43,206 nucleotides of DNA from a virus. The stretch covers positions 1 to 43,206 of IMG/VR virus record IMGVR_UViG_3300036719_004441. The stretch is one strand, 5' to 3'. Below the pieces are notes generated by a model. The model made no database searches. It was not told the origin of the DNA and was given only the letters and a program-made list of their open reading frames with translations. Below, in pieces: positions 2,757-41,747 of this stretch. Numbering within the stretch: the stretch's first letter is position 1; every line of letters starts with the position of its first letter. Made by a program: the position numbers and the translations under genes.

Positions 2757-3131
2757 ATGAAGGATAATGAAGAAACATATATATCGCTTTTTGAATATTT
2801 AGGTAAAGGTTCTGGCGGATCGAACATCGGTCGAGAAGTAACAGCAGAAGCTGTTAAACAAGGCATTGAGATTAAATGGAGAATGTTACCGAAAGAAATT
2901 CAAAAACCAGAATACTCTCAAGTGCAATTATATCCTATATCATTTTTAGATGAATATTTTGCAACTAAGCCTGAGATGGATTTAACACCAATTGTACGAC
3001 GATCTGCTTTAATACAAATATATCAGCGACTCGAAGAGCTAGAATTGAAAATTAAAGTTTTATTAGATAAATTAGAAACAAATGTTACCAATAGTAATGA
3101 GCACGATGACACAGATGAACTACCGTTTTGA
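2757..3131 (+). CDS. Hypothetical protein with SSB-like acidic C-terminal tip
   Basis: This 124-residue protein is of unknown function. The N-terminal part contains a conserved-looking stretch SLFEYLGKGSGGSNIGRE, and residues 85-110 form a probable coiled helix (RRSALIQIYQRLEELELK). The very end, HDDTDELPF, resembles the acidic tip of bacterial single-strand binding proteins (DDxIPF type), which docks replication and repair enzymes. That likeness covers only a few residues and there is no evident OB fold. It overlaps the QueE gene. Confidence 0.55.
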   Translation: MKDNEETYISLFEYLGKGSGGSNIGREVTAEAVKQGIEIKWRMLPKEIQKPEYSQVQLYPISFLDEYFATKPEMDLTPIVRRSALIQIYQRLEELELKIKVLLDKLETNVTNSNEHDDTDELPF

Positions 3132-3915
3132 ACCACGGCCAGGAGATGTACGAATTTTTGATTATGATAAAGTTCTACCAATAGTCGAATTGTACAGATG
3201 CGTACAAAGCGAAGGCAGTAGATTTGGACGACCGACAATTGCAATCCGTACGACCGGATGTACGCACCGATGTTACTTCGGAGAAGGTGGATGGTGTGAC
3301 AGTTGGTACACATCTATTCATCCAGAGAAAGGTAAATTCACATTCAATGATATCATTAAAATATACGATGAAAACCCTCATGTTAAAGAAATGATGATCA
3401 CTGGCGGATCGCCTACAATGCATCCAGCATTGTTAAATGAATTGACTGTATTTGCACTGAAACGTGGCATTGTAACTACATTGGAAACCGAAGGTAGTCA
3501 TTTCATTGAAACTACGTTGCCAATTGATCTTATTTCATTATCACCTAAATTCAATAATTCAATTCCTAAATTAGGAGCTATAACACCTCAAGGTGCAGTC
3601 GTTGATCAGAAAATGATTAACCAACATAACAAATTCAGACTGCATAAAGAAAACATTGCAAAGATGATTAAGTATCATCATAACTATCATTACAAACCAG
3701 TATGGGATGGTACAGAAGAAAATTTAAAAGAAATAGAAGATTTTCGTGTTGAACTTGGCATTCCAAAGCATAGAACATATATTATGCCAGCCGGTGATAC
3801 AAGAGAAGAACTAATTAAAATGTATCCTATCGTATTTGAAATGGTCGCAGAACATGGTTATAATATGACCGGTAGAGACCATATCATTGCATATGATACT
3901 GAACGAGGAGTATAA
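3097..3915 (+). CDS. queE: QueE-like 7-carboxy-7-deazaguanine synthase (radical SAM)
   Basis: QueE turns 6-carboxytetrahydropterin into 7-carboxy-7-deazaguanine (CDG) using SAM and a 4Fe-4S cluster. The leader LYRCVQSEGSRFGRPTIAIR matches the QueE start (xSlQGEGxxxGxpxxFiR). The cluster cysteines are spaced C-X3-C-X7-C (GCTHRCYFGEGGWCDSW), longer than the common CX3CX2C. MMITGGSP is the GGEP-like SAM motif, and LETEGSHF and LISLSPK are the later strands. The C-terminal half is ordinary for the family. Start choice is uncertain: in-frame ATGs lie at 3082, 3097, 3106 and 3115, all overlapping the previous gene, without a clear ribosome site. Confidence 0.85.
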   Translation: MSTMTQMNYRFEPRPGDVRIFDYDKVLPIVELYRCVQSEGSRFGRPTIAIRTTGCTHRCYFGEGGWCDSWYTSIHPEKGKFTFNDIIKIYDENPHVKEMMITGGSPTMHPALLNELTVFALKRGIVTTLETEGSHFIETTLPIDLISLSPKFNNSIPKLGAITPQGAVVDQKMINQHNKFRLHKENIAKMIKYHHNYHYKPVWDGTEENLKEIEDFRVELGIPKHRTYIMPAGDTREELIKMYPIVFEMVAEHGYNMTGRDHIIAYDTERGV

Positions 3916-3935: not shown

Positions 3936-4244
3936 ATGCAAGAAACTTATGATTGGCAACCGATAGGTGACCTAGTTTTATTAAAAGAAATTGAAGCACC
4001 AACCAAATCAAAAGGTGGTTTGATATTATCAAATGCATCGACAGATTATGTGAAAGCTAAGGTAACGGCTGTCGGTCCTGGTCTGTTTACACATACGGGT
4101 GACAGGATTCCAATGACCGTTGCAGTCGGTGATATCGTAATGATTCATAAAAATCAAAGCGGTGAAAATAAAAAAGTTAAACTTAATGATGAATCATTTC
4201 TTTTAGTACATGAAGGTGATTTATCATTAAGATGCTTATGTTAA
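3936..4244 (+). CDS. GroES-like co-chaperonin
   Basis: A 102-residue cpn10-family protein that would cap a chaperonin ring. IGDLVLLKEIEAPTKSKGG matches the first strand and the start of the mobile loop, KVTAVGPG the central turn, and VAVGDIVMIHKNQSGE plus FLLVHEGDL the second half of the fold. The mobile loop KSKGGLILS is recognisable. T4 uses gp31 in this role with host GroEL, but this genome also encodes its own GroEL at 13.1 kb. An A-rich AAAGGAAAA ribosome site precedes the ATG. The gene sits between QueE and a small membrane protein. Confidence 0.85.
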   Translation: MQETYDWQPIGDLVLLKEIEAPTKSKGGLILSNASTDYVKAKVTAVGPGLFTHTGDRIPMTVAVGDIVMIHKNQSGENKKVKLNDESFLLVHEGDLSLRCLC

Positions 4245-4283
4245 ACAAATGTCTCGCGCGACACTAAATTAAAAGGAGTAAAT

Positions 4284-4667
4284 ATGGAAACATTAATTTT
4301 CGTTTTAGGTACACTCAGTGGTTTGGTGTTATTAGCGCTTGGCTACGCGGTAGTGGGTGTGATTAAGATTAACAAATTAACAAAATCACTACAACAACAA
4401 ATCGAAGGAATTCATCGTGATGGATTTCGAGATATATGGCAAACTATAGATCAAAGGTCATCTGAAGTAGATCGTCGTTTTCATGAACTATTTATGGAAA
4501 TGGACAAGCGTTGGAACGAATTGCATCACGAATTAAACAATCGATTTAGCGATGTAAATTCAGAAATCAATGAAACGCGAAGATATACTGATTCGCGATT
4601 AGACAAGATGATTGATAGTCTTACTAACAAAGACAGTAAAAACAAAAAAACTGTGGAAACAGTTTAA
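4284..4667 (+). CDS. Small membrane protein with coiled-coil tail
   Basis: This 127-residue protein has one strong hydrophobic N-terminal segment (residues 4-28, LIFVLGTLSGLVLLALGYAV). A long charged helix with heptad spacing follows (about 33-115, for example IDQRSSEVDRRFHELFMEMD). The layout is a membrane-anchored coiled coil. AAAAGGAGTAAAT before the ATG is a good Shine-Dalgarno sequence, in contrast to most neighbours. The function is unknown; a spanin-like or membrane-scaffold role is possible but not shown. A short GC-rich palindrome TCGCGCGA lies in the gap upstream. Confidence 0.6.
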   Translation: METLIFVLGTLSGLVLLALGYAVVGVIKINKLTKSLQQQIEGIHRDGFRDIWQTIDQRSSEVDRRFHELFMEMDKRWNELHHELNNRFSDVNSEINETRRYTDSRLDKMIDSLTNKDSKNKKTVETV

Positions 4668-4727: not shown

Positions 4728-5408
4728 ATGAAAAAAAATATGACGAATAATAAATTTGAAATTGAACTAGTTAAACTAGGATATGCAAATGGCTCAGCCC
4801 CCGGGGCTCCTTTTACCAGAGATGAAAAAGATAAGATGATCCAAGAGGCTGCTGATGCATTTGGTAAGTTTTTAGATGCATTGAAATGTGATTGGCGTAA
4901 TGATCCAAATTCGAGTGATACACCTCGCCGTGTTGCCAAAGCATATGTGAATGACTTATGGGCAGGTCGATATAATGGTACACCTGATATCACTGCATTT
5001 CCATCTGACGGATATGATGGTATGGTTTTTGAAGGAGGTATTCCGTTAACATCGATGTGTTCGCACCATCATCAAACCATAATGGGTCGTGTACATGTTG
5101 CATATATTCCAGGAGCTGATAGTAAAGTAATAGGTCTTTCCAAATTGAATAGACTAGTAGAGCACTTTGGAAGACGAGGCGCCATTCAAGAGCAATTAAC
5201 TGTTGCAATTCATAATGCCATAGATACCATTATCAATGACAATAAAGGCGTTGCTGTTATGATAGAAGCTACTCATAACTGTGTACAATGTCGTGGTGTT
5301 AAGCATGGCGGTGCATCAATGAAGACATCTAAATTGACAGGTGCATTCAAAGAGAATGATGCTACTCGAGCAGAGTTTTATGAATTTGTAAAAGGTTATA
5401 ACAACTAA
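4728..5408 (+). CDS. folE: GTP cyclohydrolase I
   Basis: FolE converts GTP to dihydroneopterin triphosphate, the entry step of folate and 7-deazaguanine synthesis. All core motifs are present: C111-SHH (zinc Cys and His114), GRVHVAYIPG, VIGLSKLNRLVEHFGRR, IQEQLT and ATHNC185VQCRGV with the third zinc ligand. The 226-residue length is normal. It follows promoter 2 and sits 2 bases ahead of the DNA polymerase gene, linking precursor supply to replication. With QueD, QueE and DpdA in the same region, its purpose is probably DNA base modification rather than folate. The translation start may be the ATG at 4740, given the promoter position. Confidence 0.93.
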   Translation: MKKNMTNNKFEIELVKLGYANGSAPGAPFTRDEKDKMIQEAADAFGKFLDALKCDWRNDPNSSDTPRRVAKAYVNDLWAGRYNGTPDITAFPSDGYDGMVFEGGIPLTSMCSHHHQTIMGRVHVAYIPGADSKVIGLSKLNRLVEHFGRRGAIQEQLTVAIHNAIDTIINDNKGVAVMIEATHNCVQCRGVKHGGASMKTSKLTGAFKENDATRAEFYEFVKGYNN

Positions 5409-8358: not shown

Positions 8359-9560
8359 AAAGAAAATTATTTTATTTTGGCCTAGAGCCACTTAAAGCTC
8401 GTTATACATATCAGTTATGTAAAGAATGGATGCCAGCTACTTTTGAACCATACAAAGATCGTTTAGAGTTCATTGAAATTGAAGGAGAGTTCGATCCGGA
8501 CCAAGAAATCAAAGTAGGCGCTGTATTAGATGCTATCGGTCGTGGTAAGTATAGTCTTAGTCAATGTGAAAAGTTTTTGCAAATGATTTATGATGGTACG
8601 GTACGCGATGGTGATATTATTTATCTGCAAGATTACTGGACACCTGGTTTAGATGCGATTTGGTATGCATTGGACTTATATAAAATCAACGTTAAAGTAT
8701 ATGCTATGTTACATGCACAATCAGTTGATGAATATGATTTCACATATCCAATGAGCAGTTGGATGCGTCATTATGAATTAGGTTTAGATAAACGAATGAC
8801 AGGTATATTTGTTGGTTCAACGGTTCATAAAGAACAATTAAGAGCAGCCGGGTTTACATCGCCGATACATGTCGTATCATTACCAATTCATAAACAAGCT
8901 ACATTAGCAAAATTGCCAATGTATACGCCAGACCGATTTAGTTGTAAACAAAATGTGGTTGTATATTCATCGCGATTTGACAAAGAGAAGAATCCATTTT
9001 TTATGCTCAAAGTAGCTAAAGAATTTTTGAAATTGAATCCGACTTGGGAATGGCATGTTACGACATCTGGAAAAGAGTTCCGGTCAATGTTACCTGGTGT
9101 TATTGATGCAATGAATACATTGGCATCAGAGGAGCCAAGATTCAAATTATTGAAAGGACTTACAAAAGAAGAATATTATACAGAATTAGCAACTTGCAGG
9201 ATACAATTCAATACATCATTACAAGATTATGTGTCATGGACTGTCATCGAAGCAACTGCATTTGGTGCTGATATTGTATATCCAAATTTCAGATCATTTC
9301 CAGAATTTGTCGATGAGAATCGAATGTATAAAGCATTTGATTGGAGAGATGCAATATTAGTTATGAACAGATCAATATTGTCGCCTCGTAATCATTATGA
9401 CATTGTAGAAAAATCTGATTTAGGTAGACGTATGGAAGGATATATCATTGCCAATGATTATTCAAATGAGATATGCGTTTGGCATGAGAGTGAATTATGT
9501 GAGGCATTATTAGAGACTGAAAAAGTAAATAGCAAACAATTGGAGTTTAATTTCGCATGA
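8355..9560 (+). CDS. GT-B fold glycosyltransferase, coupled to the DpdA-like gene
   Basis: A 401-residue protein with the layout of a GT4-type retaining glycosyltransferase. The N-terminal Rossmann-like half includes DGDIIYLQDYWTPGLDAIWY and VKVYAMLHAQSVDEYDF. The linker VVYSSRFDKEKNPFFMLKVA matches the typical xGRlxxeKg segment. The C-terminal donor-site region has TELATCRIQFNTSLQDYVSWTVIEATAFGADIVYPN, where the S-x-x-E-A-x-x-x-G pattern holds the sugar nucleotide. It overlaps both neighbours by 4 bases. Unlike the other glycosyltransferases of this window it lies in the replication block, so DNA could be its substrate. That is inference; the acceptor is not shown by the sequence. Confidence 0.75.
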   Translation: MKRKLFYFGLEPLKARYTYQLCKEWMPATFEPYKDRLEFIEIEGEFDPDQEIKVGAVLDAIGRGKYSLSQCEKFLQMIYDGTVRDGDIIYLQDYWTPGLDAIWYALDLYKINVKVYAMLHAQSVDEYDFTYPMSSWMRHYELGLDKRMTGIFVGSTVHKEQLRAAGFTSPIHVVSLPIHKQATLAKLPMYTPDRFSCKQNVVVYSSRFDKEKNPFFMLKVAKEFLKLNPTWEWHVTTSGKEFRSMLPGVIDAMNTLASEEPRFKLLKGLTKEEYYTELATCRIQFNTSLQDYVSWTVIEATAFGADIVYPNFRSFPEFVDENRMYKAFDWRDAILVMNRSILSPRNHYDIVEKSDLGRRMEGYIIANDYSNEICVWHESELCEALLETEKVNSKQLEFNFA

Positions 9561-10750
9561 AAGATTTAATTTATTATCCTTCGTTATCTGCAGGTGGTTG
9601 TGCCGGCGACTTTAAAAATAATAAAGAAGTCAAGCCCGGCCTTACAAGTAGATTTTATTCAAAGGACTTTCCGGAAAGATGGAGACATCCGTATTTCCTT
9701 ATTACAGCAGGTCACCATTACAAATGGGCGGATGCAAGACAACGTTATGGATTAGAGGATGACGTATTAGTGTTAGGAGATTCTGGAGGATTCCAGTTAG
9801 CTACTGGTGCGATCAAATGGGACCCGAAGTTTAAAGAAACTATTTTCAATTGGTTAGAAGCTAATTGTGACCTAGGAGTAAATTTAGATATTCCGCCTCG
9901 CGCTAAATACGATGGAAAATTTTATGAATGTTTGGATATTAGTTATGATAACTTCAAATACTTTTCAGAAAATCAAAGTGGTAAATGTAAATTCCTTAAT
10001 GTGATACAAGGTAACAATGTTGATGAATATGAACATTGGTACAAGCGTGTTAAGGATTTTGATTTCAATGGTTGGTGTATTGGTGGTACTCAAAAACGTA
10101 TTACAATGTTCTTTGCAGCATTAGCTCCAATGATTCGTAATAGAGAATTTGAAAATCCTCGTAATCAATTTGTACACGTATTAGGAATTTCAAAGATATC
10201 TGATTTCTTTATGTTGAGTTTCTTTCAGAAGATGTTGAACAAATATCATGGAGGAAGAATACAGGTATCAACGGATTCATCATCTCCAGGACAGTATCCT
10301 GTATATGGAACATATTTGCATTCACCTCAGTTAAATAAAATGGTGTTTACTCATTTGTATTTTCCAAAAGGAGAAAATCTTCCGTATAATCCAACTGATT
10401 TAGTTCCTAATCCATTTGGTCATCCAGTTAGTGAAGGATTTACATTCGGTGAGGTTTCAAACTACAAAGGTGATGTTACAATGAAAATGACATTGAATAA
10501 TTTATTTGTTTACAATGAAACAGTTAAACAAGTAGAAGAAATTGTAAAATGTCATAATGAATTGCTTCAAACAGTTATCCCGGCAGATTTTTATAGTGTG
10601 TTAATGTCAATGGAAGAAATGTTTTTGAACCCAGACAATGCAATTAACATCTATGAAAAGAATGTTCAATTATACAACCGCTTTGGTGGCGGAACTAAGG
10701 ATTTAGTAAATAATCAAGTTATAACACAATTTTTTGATCTAGGACAGTAA
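9557..10750 (+). CDS. dpdA: DpdA-like DNA deazaguanine transglycosylase (TGT superfamily)
   Basis: TGT-family enzymes exchange guanine for a 7-deazaguanine; DpdA relatives act on DNA. Family marks are DSGGFQ (75-80, general-base Asp75), LDIPP (110-114), NVIQG (148-152), WCIGGTQK (173-180), HVLGISK (207-213) and STDSSSP (238-244) with Asp240 as candidate nucleophile. I do not see the CXCXXC...H zinc signature of tRNA-type TGT in the last third, and the length (397) is in the usual range. The presence of FolE, QueD and QueE nearby, and a coupled glycosyltransferase, favour a DNA rather than tRNA target. Confidence 0.82.
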   Translation: MKDLIYYPSLSAGGCAGDFKNNKEVKPGLTSRFYSKDFPERWRHPYFLITAGHHYKWADARQRYGLEDDVLVLGDSGGFQLATGAIKWDPKFKETIFNWLEANCDLGVNLDIPPRAKYDGKFYECLDISYDNFKYFSENQSGKCKFLNVIQGNNVDEYEHWYKRVKDFDFNGWCIGGTQKRITMFFAALAPMIRNREFENPRNQFVHVLGISKISDFFMLSFFQKMLNKYHGGRIQVSTDSSSPGQYPVYGTYLHSPQLNKMVFTHLYFPKGENLPYNPTDLVPNPFGHPVSEGFTFGEVSNYKGDVTMKMTLNNLFVYNETVKQVEEIVKCHNELLQTVIPADFYSVLMSMEEMFLNPDNAINIYEKNVQLYNRFGGGTKDLVNNQVITQFFDLGQ

Positions 10751-12854: not shown

Positions 12855-15115
<2,261 letters not shown>

Positions 15116-35673: not shown

Positions 35674-35964
35674 ATGATCAAGAAAAAGATACAAGACTTT
35701 AAAAACGCTGTTGATCGGTTTTCGTTTGCTCAGATGACGTCTAACTCAGATGGAAAAACATCGGGGTCGGGTACGATGGGTATATTGATATGTACAATAG
35801 GATGTTTAACATTCTTATTAGGATGTATAGATAAAATGTTCATAAACAATGACATTGACATTTTAACACAAACTATTATATTTACTGGAATAGGCGCAGC
35901 ATTATTAGGATATCGTAAATCAATTGATCAGAATTTACCTGAATCAAGAAATGAGGAGCAATAA
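35674..35964 (+). CDS. Small two-span membrane protein
   Basis: 96 residues from the ATG at 35674, chosen because AAAAGGAATAAGT sits right before it; a TTG start at 35647 would overlap promoter candidate B. Two hydrophobic segments are seen, about residues 35-55 (GILICTIGCLTFLLGCI) and 67-82 (IFTGIGAALLG). The N-terminus is basic and the C-terminal tail charged. A holin or other small membrane role is possible because of size and topology, but nothing in the sequence proves it. The stop overlaps the next start (TAATG). Confidence 0.6.
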   Translation: MIKKKIQDFKNAVDRFSFAQMTSNSDGKTSGSGTMGILICTIGCLTFLLGCIDKMFINNDIDILTQTIIFTGIGAALLGYRKSIDQNLPESRNEEQ

Positions 35965-36692
35965 TGCCATATACGTATAAAAAGGTTGGTGACAAATATT
36001 GTGTGTATAAAAAAGATGGTGGTGCAAAAGTTGGATGTACGGCAGGCAATAAAACTGCTCTTAAAAAATATTTAAGTGCATTACATGTTAATGAATCACA
36101 TTCATACGATCATGAAGTTTCCATGGCAGAAAAACAGTTAGAAGATATCATTCGTAATGCCGTTGAACTAATTCAAAAGCTTGGAACTCAAGAGCGTAAC
36201 ATCCCAGGTTGGATATCAGATCATATATCTCAGTCACAAAATTTCATCAATCAAGCTAATTACGGATTTCATGAGTTAGATGAATCATTGAATGAGGATA
36301 AACCGTGCTGGAAAGATTATGAAATGATAGGAATGAAAACAAAAAATGGTAAACAAGTTCCTAACTGTGTTCCAAAAAATGAACGTGTATTGTATCGTAA
36401 TGAATCGATGCGTTTTGAAATAGTCGAATCAGATGAACCATATCCAATTGAAGAAGCAGAATACCAAGGACGTAATGTAAAGCTAGGTAAACCTATGCAA
36501 GGCGATGTCAAAAAATTTAAAGTATATGTGAAAAATGAAAAAGGTAACGTTGTTAAAGTTAACTTTGGACAAAAAGGTATGACCATCAAGAAAAATAATC
36601 CAGAACGACGTAGGTCTTTCAGAGCACGTCATAACTGTGATAATCCCGGACCTCGTGATAAAGCCAGATACTGGTCATGTCGTAAATGGTAA
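35964..36692 (+). CDS. Modular basic protein, probable head core/structural protein
   Basis: 242 residues in three blocks. The N-terminal block YKKVGDKYCVYKKDGG ends in LHVNES, a possible prohead-protease site. The middle block CWKDYEMIGMKTKNGKQVP, then NCVP, recurs in T4-like phages. The C-terminal block is strongly basic: ERRRSFRARHNCDNPGPRDK followed by ARYWSCRKW, known to me from head/prohead-associated proteins of marine myoviruses, possibly a zinc or nucleic-acid binding end. GAGGAG before the ATG is a ribosome site. It likely binds DNA or the scaffold during head assembly. Confidence 0.6.
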   Translation: MPYTYKKVGDKYCVYKKDGGAKVGCTAGNKTALKKYLSALHVNESHSYDHEVSMAEKQLEDIIRNAVELIQKLGTQERNIPGWISDHISQSQNFINQANYGFHELDESLNEDKPCWKDYEMIGMKTKNGKQVPNCVPKNERVLYRNESMRFEIVESDEPYPIEEAEYQGRNVKLGKPMQGDVKKFKVYVKNEKGNVVKVNFGQKGMTIKKNNPERRRSFRARHNCDNPGPRDKARYWSCRKW

Positions 36693-36735: not shown

Positions 36736-37413
36736 ATGATTAAATTAGCAAACTTATTAAAAGAACAAATGCAACCGCAATTTGAACCGGTAAAATTGCA
36801 TTGGAAATATGAAGACTATGAACCTGCGTTTGACGCGGAAACAATGAAACTTCATTATACTAAACATTACATAGGTTATATCGATAAACTTAATAAAGCA
36901 GTTGTCGATGAAAACATTCCGGTAGTGTTTGATGATAAAATGGGCGGCATTCATCGCATATTAGAAACAGTATCTCAGTACAGTAATACAGTTCGAAATA
37001 ACGGCGGAGGATTTCTTAATCATACAATTTGGTTTGATCAACTCAATCCAGAACATAAAGGAAAGATATCGGGAATGATTGAACCAATGTTTAATGATCA
37101 GTATGGTGATTATGAAAAATTCAAAGAAGAATTTAAACAGGCATCATTAGATCATTTTGGTTCAGGTTGGGTCTGGTTGATGTATGACAAAGGCGAACTA
37201 CGTATCACCAGTACCGATAATCAAGACAATCCATATATGGACATTGTGAATGAACCAGGTAAAATTCTTATGGGTATTGATTTATGGGAGCATTCATATT
37301 ACTTGAAATATAAAAATGATCGAGCAAAATACGTCGATAACTTTTTCAAATTGATTTGTTATGACATGGTCAATGATCGTTTAGACAGGGCAATTAACTC
37401 ATTAACATATTGA
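36736..37413 (+). CDS. Mn/Fe superoxide dismutase with capsid-targeting-like leader
   Basis: 225 residues. After the leader MIKLANLLKE (1-10) a full Fe/Mn SOD follows. The ligands are H40 (LHYTKHY), H96 (FLNHTIWF), D182 and H186 (GIDLWEHSYYLKY); H44 and Y48 correspond to E. coli H30 and Y34. NNGGG with G92, and NQD with Q163, are the Gly/Gln combination of the Mn type. FGSGWVWL (141-148) is also present. The enzyme would turn superoxide into peroxide and oxygen. Relative to E. coli SodA the N-terminus is longer by about 13 residues, just the leader. Its place among other leader-bearing genes suggests packaging in the head. Confidence 0.92.
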   Translation: MIKLANLLKEQMQPQFEPVKLHWKYEDYEPAFDAETMKLHYTKHYIGYIDKLNKAVVDENIPVVFDDKMGGIHRILETVSQYSNTVRNNGGGFLNHTIWFDQLNPEHKGKISGMIEPMFNDQYGDYEKFKEEFKQASLDHFGSGWVWLMYDKGELRITSTDNQDNPYMDIVNEPGKILMGIDLWEHSYYLKYKNDRAKYVDNFFKLICYDMVNDRLDRAINSLTY

Positions 37414-37414
37414 T

Positions 37415-38182
37415 ATGGAAAAGGTATTAGGATATATTCGACCGGCAGCTGCCTTTCATACATTGCAAGAATGGCAAACTGTTGCCAAGCGCATGTTAGC
37501 ATTACAGAAACAAGGCATTGATACGAGGGGTGGTTTTCTTAACAATCATCCAGAACTACATTCACTCATTGATAAATACTTCTCATATCAGTTTTATACT
37601 GAAGAACCTCGTTATGATTTGCTTACAAAAAAGAATGTGTTAGATTTCGTTGAAGATTTTATTAATCATAGACTTTGGTCGTTGGATGAAGAATATGGTC
37701 GATATTTCAAAAACATATGGGATTTAAAATTTACATATTTTTATTCACGCGGTGATATAGAACCTTATGTGATGTTAGATGAAGAATATACAACACAAAT
37801 TTATGGAAGTACAAACAATGTAATGCAACTTAAACATTATACAGATATGGATGGAGTTGCTCGATTGGAATCAGCTTTGGAAACAGGTAATGTATTTGAC
37901 ATATCAGCATTCACAATGGCGGAGCGAGCATTCTTTCGCAAAGAATCAAATCTAGTAGTTGAATTCATAGGCAATGTACGTGCTGGATTCAAAAGCGATA
38001 TAAAATCATATGCAATAGATAATGGTAGAAAGGCATGCAATCTTTATCGGTTAGGATATCCTAGTGATACCGAAAACAATATCTGTTATGAATTAGAATC
38101 TTGTCAGTCAGCTGTAGAAACTGCGTTATGGAATGAATACATTGCAACGCCAATGCAAATATTAAAAGTGAGTAGAATATGA
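37415..38182 (+). CDS. Hypothetical protein, possible ADP-ribosyltransferase-like fold
   Basis: 255 residues, starting one base after the superoxide dismutase stop. The N-terminal half is helical without a known domain. The C-terminal half reads LKHYTDMDGVARLESAL, then DISAFT, then LVVEFIGNVRAGFKSDIKS, and ends ALWNEYIATPMQILKV. The sequence H-Y-T, S-x-F-T and a Glu before a last strand recalls the order of the three motifs in ADP-ribosyltransferase folds. Evidence is weak and no family was confirmed. It has no leader like the neighbouring genes. It overlaps the next gene by ATGA. Confidence 0.4.
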   Translation: MEKVLGYIRPAAAFHTLQEWQTVAKRMLALQKQGIDTRGGFLNNHPELHSLIDKYFSYQFYTEEPRYDLLTKKNVLDFVEDFINHRLWSLDEEYGRYFKNIWDLKFTYFYSRGDIEPYVMLDEEYTTQIYGSTNNVMQLKHYTDMDGVARLESALETGNVFDISAFTMAERAFFRKESNLVVEFIGNVRAGFKSDIKSYAIDNGRKACNLYRLGYPSDTENNICYELESCQSAVETALWNEYIATPMQILKVSRI

Positions 38183-38730
38183 TATCATTAAAAAAAATAA
38201 TGCAAGAAGCATTCGGTGATTATTACAAAAAGAATGTTTGGACAGAATTGCCAAAACGAATGGTCGCGGATAATGCAGATGAACTATTTGATTTGATACA
38301 ATCGGCGTATGCTGATAAAGGCGGCAATCTTAAGATTAAAAGTCGTAATGATGTCATGAATCGTTCTGAAATCAATTATTGGTTAGCAATTGATACTGAC
38401 AACGATCCTGATCCAGATGCAACCGTAGCCGGACGAACTACACCAGTTGGTCATAAAATATCAATAATAGGACAAGATGGTGGTAAAGATGCAAAACGAG
38501 CAGCAGTTGAAAAATTTATTGCGTTAATGAAGAGGCGCGGCTTTTACGCAGAGATAGATATAGATCTAGCTAATAAATTTGGATTAGATGTTATTACAGA
38601 TCCAGCTATTATATCAAAAGTATTGGCAGGTAAAGAAATTGAACATCTTGGAAAAGGTTTATATAAACGTACTATTGGAGCTGCTGGTAAAGCCAAAGAA
38701 AAAGTATTAATAGGAATACCAAAAGTATGA
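38179..38730 (+). CDS. Putative internal head protein with leader, 183 aa
   Basis: The N-terminus MISLKKIMQEAF matches the leader pattern M-(I/P)-x-L-x-x-I-(L/M)-x-E of this region. The body has a mixed fold with NYWLAIDTDNDPDPDATVAG, GHKISIIGQDGGKDAKRA and a helix-strand LMKRRGFYAEID. The layout could be acetyltransferase-like, but the acetyl-CoA loop is not clear, so I give no function. The C-terminal end is basic. It overlaps both neighbours by 4 bases. Confidence 0.55.
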   Translation: MISLKKIMQEAFGDYYKKNVWTELPKRMVADNADELFDLIQSAYADKGGNLKIKSRNDVMNRSEINYWLAIDTDNDPDPDATVAGRTTPVGHKISIIGQDGGKDAKRAAVEKFIALMKRRGFYAEIDIDLANKFGLDVITDPAIISKVLAGKEIEHLGKGLYKRTIGAAGKAKEKVLIGIPKV

Positions 38731-39419
38731 TTAGATTATACGAGATATTACGGCATTCATTGATAAAAGAATTTTCCGATGATTTAGAAAAGTCTATATC
38801 AGAAGCTTCAGTATCACCATCATCTCGTTTGAAAATGTTACTTCGTAAGGCCGATTCAACTGTATTCAAACCATTTGGAATTAAACCGTCTCAACAAAAA
38901 TATTTTATCGCAGGATCGGCTCGAATATACTTATATCCTGAATTAGTTAAATCATTAAATCTCAAACCAATTGGTGATTTAGACATAGTCGTTCCAGATA
39001 ATACGTATTGGAATCATGTTGAAAAATATATACAACAGTATCCGAATGATGCAGTAGGTCCTAAAGAAATTGAAATGAAAAGATATTCTCCTACTCCGGA
39101 AGAAGATATCGATGTATTTGACGCGTGGTTGCCAAAATATGATGAAGAATCAACTGGAAATTTTGAAGTTAGAAATACTGATATAATACTTAAAAATGCT
39201 AGAAACTTAGGAGGATACTATTATATGAGTTTCTACGATATCATTGATTATAAATTTGCATTGAAGCGGGAAAAAGAAAAACCTATCATCGATTTATTGA
39301 TTAAATATAAAAATGCATCAGATTCAGAAAAAGAAACTATTAAAAAACAAGTTATGTCTATAGTAGGAAATGATTCACGCGAAGCTGATGAATTTTTACA
39401 ACCTGCCGTAAATAGTTAA
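38727..39419 (+). CDS. Nucleotidyltransferase-fold protein with leader
   Basis: 230 residues. The N-terminus MIRLYEILRHSLIKE is a leader of the type seen in the neighbours. The core YFIAGSARIYL (G63-S64) and IGDLDIVVP (D84, D86) form the GS...DxD signature of Pol-beta-type nucleotidyltransferases, and EEDIDVFDAW gives the third acid (D127/D129). MSFYDIIDYKFALKREKEK resembles the helix after the core in minimal NTases. Such enzymes move NMP onto protein, RNA or drugs, and occur in toxin systems. A packaged effector that modifies host RNA or protein would fit. It ends just before promoter 5. Confidence 0.68.
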   Translation: MIRLYEILRHSLIKEFSDDLEKSISEASVSPSSRLKMLLRKADSTVFKPFGIKPSQQKYFIAGSARIYLYPELVKSLNLKPIGDLDIVVPDNTYWNHVEKYIQQYPNDAVGPKEIEMKRYSPTPEEDIDVFDAWLPKYDEESTGNFEVRNTDIILKNARNLGGYYYMSFYDIIDYKFALKREKEKPIIDLLIKYKNASDSEKETIKKQVMSIVGNDSREADEFLQPAVNS

Positions 39420-40374: not shown

Positions 40375-40848
40375 GTGAAAACAACTAAACAAAGATTAAT
40401 GGAGCTAGCTGGTTTAGTAAATGAAGCAGTAGATCCAAGCAATTGGCCTCTTGGGTATTTCGAAGTTAAAAACACGTTTGAAATCACTCCCGGTGGTGGT
40501 TGGCGCGTTACATTTACCAAAGGCGATATCCTACAAGTAGCAGTATCCAAGATAGATCGTAGCATACAAACTATCACACGTTGGAACGCCTTAAAGCAAG
40601 ACTGGGAAGTAAAAGCTCCACCGATTAGCGGGTACAAAGATAACGGTGGTATGTTCCCTATCTCAGCGTTTGGCGGGTCACAATCTTGGACAGCTAAATT
40701 TGCTCAAAACACCATTCCACTATCGAAAGGCAAAGCGGACACTAAGATCAAATCCGCCGCGGCTGAGACTGTATTGACTGCTAGAGAGGCTGTTAATATG
40801 TTGTCTAAATTGCCATCAAATCAAAAGGTCAAAATCACAATTGTATAG
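40375..40848 (+). CDS. Putative internal head protein with leader, 157 aa
   Basis: A GTG start is used; the N-terminus MKTTKQRLMELAGLVNEA follows and is amphipathic, ending in a Glu as in a T4-like capsid-targeting leader (T4 internal proteins begin MKTYQEFI). The body is basic and strand-rich (YFEVKNTFEITPGGGWRVTF), then TAREAVNMLSKLPSNQKVKI. No enzyme motif is seen. Base composition is slightly richer in G and C than the neighbours. It is probably a DNA-associated protein packed in the head; function unknown. Confidence 0.6.
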   Translation: MKTTKQRLMELAGLVNEAVDPSNWPLGYFEVKNTFEITPGGGWRVTFTKGDILQVAVSKIDRSIQTITRWNALKQDWEVKAPPISGYKDNGGMFPISAFGGSQSWTAKFAQNTIPLSKGKADTKIKSAAAETVLTAREAVNMLSKLPSNQKVKITIV

Positions 40849-40859
40849 AAGGAAATCGC

Positions 40860-41747
40860 ATGCCAATCAAATTGAAATCGATATTAAAAGAATCGCGTAT
40901 AAGATTACGTGAGGATGAAACAACTGATACACTTAAAAATACACTGACTAGTAGTAGTTATGAAACATTTGTTACTCAATTAGGCGATGCCGTTAAAGAT
41001 TCTAAAGTGAAAGCTGTGCTCGCCGCGGGCGAGGAAGATGGTGTTCCTGCAGATGAAAAAATTACATTAACAGATGGCGACATTGACGTTACAGCATTAC
41101 GTCCAACTCAAAATGAAATTGCTTTAGATAAATCATTGACATATCCATTGACAGATGTGAAATCAGCTGAGTCTTGTTTAAAAGGCGGTACCGTAGCAAT
41201 TGCCGGAAAACGTATTATAACCGCGGAAGGTAGTTATATTGTCGATGGACATCACCGGTGGTCTCAACTATATGCAATGAATAAGGATGCAAAGATTGCT
41301 GTAACAGATATGGTGTCTCGCGATCTAAAGAATCCATTGGACTTCTTAAAAATAACACAAGTAGCTATCGCAGCTGATTTAGGTAAAGTTCCTACTCAGA
41401 CTGCGAAAGGTTCTATCAATTTAATAACTATATCAGAAGATCAGCTTAAAAAGTTTGTTATTGATACTATTAAAGATCCGGTATTGGACGTATTTAAAAA
41501 ATATAATAAAGCAACTACTAAAGAAGAAGCAGCTGATTATATTTGGACCAACGTTCAATCAATGCAGAAAACATCGAAGCCAGTTGCTGGCGCGCCGAAA
41601 CGCGACTTTATGCCTCAAACTGATGATGCAAAGAATTGGGAGAAATTAGCTGCAGCTGGATCATTAAATTATAAAGAACCATTTACAACATCAGAATCGA
41701 TTAACAAAACACGTTGGCGTCAAATCGCAAACATAAAAAAGAAATAA
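40860..41747 (+). CDS. ParB-like (ParB/sulfiredoxin fold) protein with leader
   Basis: 295 residues. MPIKLKSILKESRIRLRED is the leader type of this region. The middle GSYIVDGHHRWSQLYAMN (DGHHRWS at 129-135) is the signature of the ParB/sulfiredoxin NTPase fold, known from ParB, Srx and phage nucleases or kinase-like proteins. The N-terminal segment is acidic, the C-terminal part basic and helical. A ParB-like DNA-binding or nuclease/NTPase role is probable, partner unknown. GAAGGAAAT precedes the ATG. A short GC hairpin lies in the coding region at 41019-41033. Confidence 0.72.
   Translation: MPIKLKSILKESRIRLREDETTDTLKNTLTSSSYETFVTQLGDAVKDSKVKAVLAAGEEDGVPADEKITLTDGDIDVTALRPTQNEIALDKSLTYPLTDVKSAESCLKGGTVAIAGKRIITAEGSYIVDGHHRWSQLYAMNKDAKIAVTDMVSRDLKNPLDFLKITQVAIAADLGKVPTQTAKGSINLITISEDQLKKFVIDTIKDPVLDVFKKYNKATTKEEAADYIWTNVQSMQKTSKPVAGAPKRDFMPQTDDAKNWEKLAAAGSLNYKEPFTTSESINKTRWRQIANIKKK

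Follow-up and report, generated by a model that had tools for sequence, protein, structure and literature searches.

A gene for a Mn-type superoxide dismutase (SOD) with an N-terminal leader lies on the plus strand of the window, which comprises the entire IMG/VR record IMGVR_UViG_3300036719_004441, a linear fragment of 43,206 bases, and several genes downstream encode proteins that begin in a similar way (Table 1). ORFs were called mechanically throughout, and the viral contigs compared are fragments. The virus is uncultured, bacteria-infecting, and T4-related; its DNA polymerase is T4-like and nearest to that of Microcystis phage Mel-JY01 (44% identity), followed by cyanophage and pelagiphage polymerases. 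No paper on Mel-JY01 was found in a literature search conducted mostly outside the subscription journals. Genes for the gp21 protease, the gp23 capsid protein, and other head proteins are absent from this 43-kb fragment, and the three SOD relatives nearest to that of the window (L013-L015) also lie on fragments from which gp21 and gp23 are absent. The T4 late-promoter word TATAAATA matched only twice on the two strands of the window, both times on the minus strand, against ~11 matches expected; T4-type late promoters are thus unsupported in the window, where the word is apparently avoided. Elsewhere in the window, QueD-like (2084-2548), radical-SAM (QueE-like; 3082-3915), GTP cyclohydrolase I (4728-5408), and TGT-like (9557-10750) genes likely form a 7-deazaguanine DNA modification set, GroES (3936-4244) and GroEL (13106-14713) homologues are phage-encoded, and positions 8355-35394 contain numerous apparent glycosyltransferases, sugar-nucleotide epimerases, and small methyltransferases, a large outlay of sugar genes for a T4-like phage.

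Table 1. Features of the SOD locus and neighboring leader-bearing genes in the 43,206-base window; a slash marks the predicted cleavage site.
Feature	Coordinates	Strand	Basis or remarks
Gene directly upstream of SOD, without N-terminal leader	35964..36692	+	Relatives in L014 and L016 bear the leader
Mn-type SOD gene with N-terminal leader	36736..37413	+	225 aa; Pfam, structures, alignment, model
Leader MIKLANLLKE, predicted capsid-targeting sequence; predicted prohead-protease cut E10/Q11	36736..36765	+	T4 IPIII register, E10 conservation, T4 control
Metal ligand His40	36853..36855	+	Alignment to SodA
Metal ligand His96, then swapped Trp99-Phe100	37021..37023	+	Alignment to SodA
Gln163, outer-sphere Gln of Mn-type enzymes	37222..37224	+	Alignment to SodA
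Metal ligands Asp182 and His186 (DLWEH)	37279..37293	+	Alignment to SodA
Hypothetical protein, leader MISLKKIMQE/A	38179..38730	+	Motif match; no Pfam or PHROG match
Weak candidate; N-terminus MIRLYEILRHSLIKE leader-like, possible site later	38727..39419	+	Sequence; strict motif unmatched
Candidate packaged protein, N-terminus MKTTKQRLMELAGLVNE/A	40375..40848	+	Motif from internal ATG at 40399
VDGHHRW protein, leader MPIKLKSILKE/S	40860..41747	+	Relatives adjoin gp21/gp23 (e.g., L094, L105, L106, L127)

The ORF is genuine, and its product is an Fe/Mn-family SOD of the Mn type, as the original prediction had proposed. The ORF extends from an ATG at 36736 to a stop codon at 37411-37413 and contains no internal stops, and its product matched both Sod_Fe_C (PF02777, 113.5 bits, 5.6e-33) and Sod_Fe_N (PF00081, 57.4 bits, 2.1e-15) above the Pfam cut-offs; the PHROGs database returned no family for it. 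The solved structures closest by sequence were MnSODs, and the AlphaFold2 model (mean pLDDT 82) found Sphingobacterium MnSOD 6gsb as its top Foldseek match (E 4.6e-17). Alignment to Salmonella SodA placed the metal ligands at H40, H96, D182, and H186, and showed that the outer-sphere residues H44, Y48, W145, Q163, W184, E185, and Y189 are kept. MnSODs are marked by an outer-sphere Gln in the C-terminal domain and by a Gly at the fourth position ahead of the second His ligand; both are present here, as Q163 (in NQD) and G92. All four ligands are thus in place, as predicted, but the second shell is not complete as had been claimed, since the Trp following the second His ligand is a Phe: in place of the usual Phe-Trp pair (NHxxFW), the protein has Trp99-Phe100 (NHTIWF, 37021-37035), with Phe100 shared by every one of the 14 leader-bearing phage SODs among the best 80 of at least 585 SOD-encoding stretches described below. 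The NHxxFW pair is usual in Fe/Mn SODs and does not define them, and the swap is a variation inside that family; given the Trp-to-Phe change, activity of the enzyme is not certain from its sequence.

Bacterial SodA proteins begin with the SOD domain at residue 1 (MAFELPxLPY) or with a secretion-type extension ahead of it, whereas the window protein carries MIKLANLLKE-QMQPQ, an extra stretch of 13-15 residues. The original prediction of a leader of about 13 residues holds for the length of this stretch, although its functional part, judged by comparison, is the first ten residues only. In T4, the first ten residues of internal protein IPIII (MKTYQEFIAE/A) are enough for head targeting, with positions 4 and 7 serving targeting and positions 8 and 10 serving processing, and the gp21 protease cleaves after L/I-x-E (PMC9026906); such capsid-targeting sequence (CTS) propeptides are borne by gp24 and the internal proteins (PMC5694885). 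The N-terminus of T4 gp24 reads MAKINELLRE/S. A T4-type CTS leader spans 10-20 residues with hydrophobic positions 4 and 7. Residues L4, L7, L8, and E10 of the SOD leader fall in the T4 CTS register, and the leader ends in L-x-E (L8-K9-E10/Q11), so that the predicted cut after E10 would leave QMQPQFEPVKL-SOD. The leader forms a short amphipathic helix, with residues 4-12 helical, at low confidence, in the model. Alignment of the 14 leader-bearing phage SODs, which are 39-64% identical to the window protein, revealed a hydrophobic residue at position 4, L or I at positions 7 and 8, and E at position 10 in every sequence, whereas positions 5 and 9 drift, as does the linker in both length and sequence.

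The leader is shared by unrelated proteins. It was formalized as a motif of M, one to three residues, a hydrophobic residue, two residues, a hydrophobic residue, L/I/M/V, any residue, and E, with a background of about 1%. In the window, the motif was present on four of 58 ORFs, all between 36.7 and 41.8 kb, compared with one of 306 internal Met, bearing out the claim that the leader matches those of neighboring genes. Across 16 leader-SOD loci it was present on 57 of 293 ORFs, compared with 12 of 1,072 internal Met. Because these loci were picked for leader-SOD and the SODs account for 14 of the 57, a fair count is about 43/277. When ORFs were grouped by homology of the sequence downstream of the leader, 41 non-homologous families bore the leader at least once, against a mean of 4.5 and a maximum of 10 for random internal Met. 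These families include relatives of Zeta-type P-loop kinase and 5′-nucleotidase, a weakly ADP-ribosyltransferase-like protein (L118), and the VDGHHRW protein, whose family adjoins gp21 and gp23 in many contigs.

T4 served as a positive control: six of its 265 ORFs carried the motif, namely IPII, IPIII, gp24, gp2, 61.1, and rnh, and Alt also matched if Phe was permitted at position 8. IPII, IPIII, and gp24 are annotated as T4 head proteins, gp2 is likewise a head protein, and the rnh match is likely a false positive. In Mel-JY01, the motif was present on seven ORFs, three of them paralogues. Cyanophage Syn9, picked for its structural-annotated proteins, had one convincing leader only, on a protein without structural annotation, which is too few to test the link.

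To recruit relatives, viral contigs were scanned with an alignment including bacterial SODs, which yielded at least 585 SOD-encoding stretches; the best 80 that were kept are those most like the window's and are no random sample. The same scan with a single SOD sequence as query gave no matches. Two architectures occurred among these best 80 of at least 585: the leader stood directly before the SOD, or the SOD formed part of a larger fusion protein, with sizes near 360, 510, and 730 aa and reaching 1,600 aa. The fusions of L025 and L035 contain a full copy of the leader internally, between an upstream domain and the SOD, and the 510-aa fusion type has the junction [LIF]-x-E-M-K-K-I-G-I-E-K-L-P-Y. 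With one sequence counted per 85%-identity group and the phage side drawn from the best 80 of at least 585, 33 of 34 phage SODs had an [LI]xE in the 24 aa preceding the SOD domain, compared with four of 65 bacterial ones; when the upstream residues were shuffled 2,000 times, the mean was 19.7 and the maximum 27.

Some phage SODs sit within polyproteins alongside other predicted enzymes. The SODs of L020, L026, L028, L046, L050, and their kin carry an HExxH-containing domain at the N-terminus, a long C-terminal domain without a Pfam match, or both, and the [LI]xE at their junctions suggests head polyproteins cut into enzymes. A 1,410-aa protein (L047, 1431-5663) has a SOD followed by a plastocyanin-like domain, as well as a GNAT domain, and a 1,602-aa protein (L063, 8219-13027) combines a SOD with a Zeta-type kinase domain; both contain many L-x-E sites between domains. 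Several records were set aside, specifically the Listeria, Staphylococcus, Enterococcus, Salmonella, E. coli, and Acinetobacter 'phage' SOD records, which look like bacterial DNA, and MW462191 ('Bacteriophage sp.'), which looks like a piece of bacterial chromosome; some of the former served as bacterial references.

A quick-method tree placed the leader SODs in one group (support 83) and the fused SODs in another (support 99), both adjoining Bacteroidota SodA and two archaeal sequences on long stems. The tree gives two phage clades and no date for the gain of the leader; because the phage groups stand apart with long stems, recent capture from a host is unlikely in these lineages. The closest cellular homologues are the Bacteroidota SodA proteins, which are about 40% identical to the window SOD but begin in one of the two ways given above for bacterial SodA. 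One exception is a SOD on a Bacteroidales-binned contig (L191, about 4001-4618) that starts MLNTLIKELKFSELPY, which is leader-like; this is possibly a phage contig inside a MAG.

Larger relatives place the leader-SOD genes in the head-gene cluster. In G001, a T4-like contig of 159 kb, leader proteins and the SOD occupy 45.4-48.1 kb, with the SOD at 47.4 kb, followed by terminase (51.9 kb), portal (53.5 kb), gp21 (57.8 kb), a gp22-like gene (58.6 kb), and gp23 (60.0 kb); the gene order in G003 is the same. A gp21-type protease (Peptidase_S77) was present in four SOD-bearing contigs (G001, G003, G011, and G016) and gp23 in six, and the capsid-protein N-termini in SOD-bearing contigs likely contain maturation sites of similar shape (QLVVE-S, QIVAE-Q). 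Among the fragments nearest the window, L014 and L015 have several of the window genes around the SOD in common. In G001, a ferritin-like gene (46089-46646, equivalent to L258 6089-6646; PF00210, 4.6e-17) is the second gene upstream of the leader-SOD; it is beside the SOD in this locus only, and BLAST of the other SOD loci found none.

Taken together, the T4 register of the leader, its L-x-E ending, its unrelated carriers, the position of the genes in the head-gene cluster, and the T4 control lead us to infer that the SOD is very probably packaged in the head and matured by the prohead protease. The original prediction of a head-packaged enzyme is therefore strongly supported, by comparative sequence only, while the gp21 and gp23 genes that would complete the picture are absent from the window. 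In the proposed mechanism, the SOD would be made as a head-targeted precursor whose amphipathic leader, M-I-K-L4-A-N-L7-L8-K-E10, would bind the prohead scaffold core as the T4 CTS does; a T4-type prohead protease would then cleave after L-K-E10, leaving active SOD in the mature head with the DNA. It would most likely be ejected with the DNA, like T4 Alt and the internal proteins, and would clear superoxide during the first minutes of infection. Core binding, cleavage, presence in the virion, ejection, catalysis, and benefit are each inferred, and we regard this reading as a whole, a head-targeted, protease-matured, ejected Mn-type SOD, as the best explanation and a probable one.

The original prediction put forward three possible roles: quenching superoxide at infection, protecting DNA in the head, or countering an oxidative defence of the host. 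Given packaging, injection is somewhat favored as the main purpose of the SOD, by analogy with T4. Most T4 internal proteins are ejected, and even beta-galactosidase, a foreign enzyme, is ejected from T4 heads (PMC9026906), a precedent that favors ejection over action inside the head. T-even internal proteins form a varied counter-defence set with only the CTS in common (PMC3012670), and a counter-defence role for the SOD is thus possible. Against ejection, passage through the tail tube would require a folded SOD dimer to unfold. The SOD might instead stay with the DNA in the virion and protect the packaged DNA and proteins against superoxide where the water is sunlit or oxic. The evidence for packaging serves this alternative equally, and the ferritin-like gene of G001 and the plastocyanin-like domain of L047 would suit a redox-protection set; it is nonetheless unlikely, if a serious contender, as most T4 internal proteins leave the head, ferritin adjoins the SOD in a single locus, and it is hard to see what would produce superoxide within a phage head.

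That the SOD is an auxiliary metabolic gene, active in the cytosol of the infected cell at replication and with a leader that is irrelevant or serves another purpose, is improbable. Leaderless or differently leadered SODs do occur amid metabolic genes in Vibrio phage 2.275.O and the PA5oct-like jumbo phages, but here the leader, the remainder of which drifts, is kept exactly where targeting and cleavage are determined, is common to about 40 unrelated families, and belongs to SOD genes in a head cluster. Some poxvirus SOD homologues are inactive, and a packaged but catalytically dead protein with a structural or metal-binding role would agree with the conserved active-site Trp-to-Phe change of the leader clade; retention of the four ligands and of Gln163, Tyr48, His44, Trp145, Trp184, Glu185, and Tyr189 makes this a rather remote alternative. 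Least credible is a tag of another kind (membrane, protein complex, or degradation signal) resembling a CTS by chance, for although short amphipathic helices such as that modeled here have many uses, the invariant Glu10, the L/I at P3, the match to T4 head proteins, and the internal copies at polyprotein junctions all speak against it.

The packaged, ejected SOD that we favor would resemble T4 IPI, IPII, IPIII, Alt, and gp24 in having a ten-residue leader with hydrophobic positions 4, 7, and 8, Glu10, an L/I-x-E end, and unrelated cargo, but the letters of the leader differ (MIKLxxLLxE here, MKTYQEFIAE in T4), and the cargo belongs to a family of redox enzymes that descends from bacteria. PA5oct/MIJ3-type Pseudomonas phages and Vibrio phage 2.275.O are also tailed phages with an Fe/Mn-family SOD; however, the SODs of these jumbo phages are 23-28% identical to the window SOD, have no MIKL leader, and lie amid metabolic and chaperone genes. 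The SOD of MIJ3 (PA5oct-type; L004, 4965-5513) starts MNDSIKKYISIAE-AASS and has an I-x-E ahead of the domain (ISIAE/A), by which it could be packaged as well.

The original prediction knew of no described case of a packaged SOD. This stands for phages, in that the literature search, conducted mostly outside the subscription journals, turned up no account of a phage virion containing a SOD, but not for viruses at large: chlorovirus PBCV-1 packages a functional Cu/Zn SOD, A245R, in its virion, and superoxide is lower in its infection than in that by a virus without the SOD gene (PMC7019647), and SOD is listed among giant-virus virion proteins (PMC9405923). The PBCV-1 enzyme has a Cu/Zn fold, a eukaryotic host, and no prohead-protease leader, whereas the window SOD has the Fe/Mn fold by Pfam and Foldseek, which is unrelated to the Cu/Zn fold.

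At its broadest, the finding would mean that a large, old, uncultured T4-related group packs modular tagged enzymes, including the SOD, nucleotidase, P-loop kinase, ADP-ribosyltransferase-like, and VDGHHRW proteins among others, that the SOD is a long-standing member disarming superoxide at entry, and that the tag predicts cargo from sequence alone; we consider this proposition evenly poised. If packaging of the SOD is true, this would be, to the extent of our search, the first bacterial virus with a particle-borne superoxide dismutase, and superoxide would be implied to pose a genuine danger as infection begins. That hundreds of viral contigs encode the SOD domain, across two phage clades with unlike architectures and like cut sites, suggests a persistent advantage, and a leader present on about 40 unrelated families would make the question of what unknown phages inject a sequence search.
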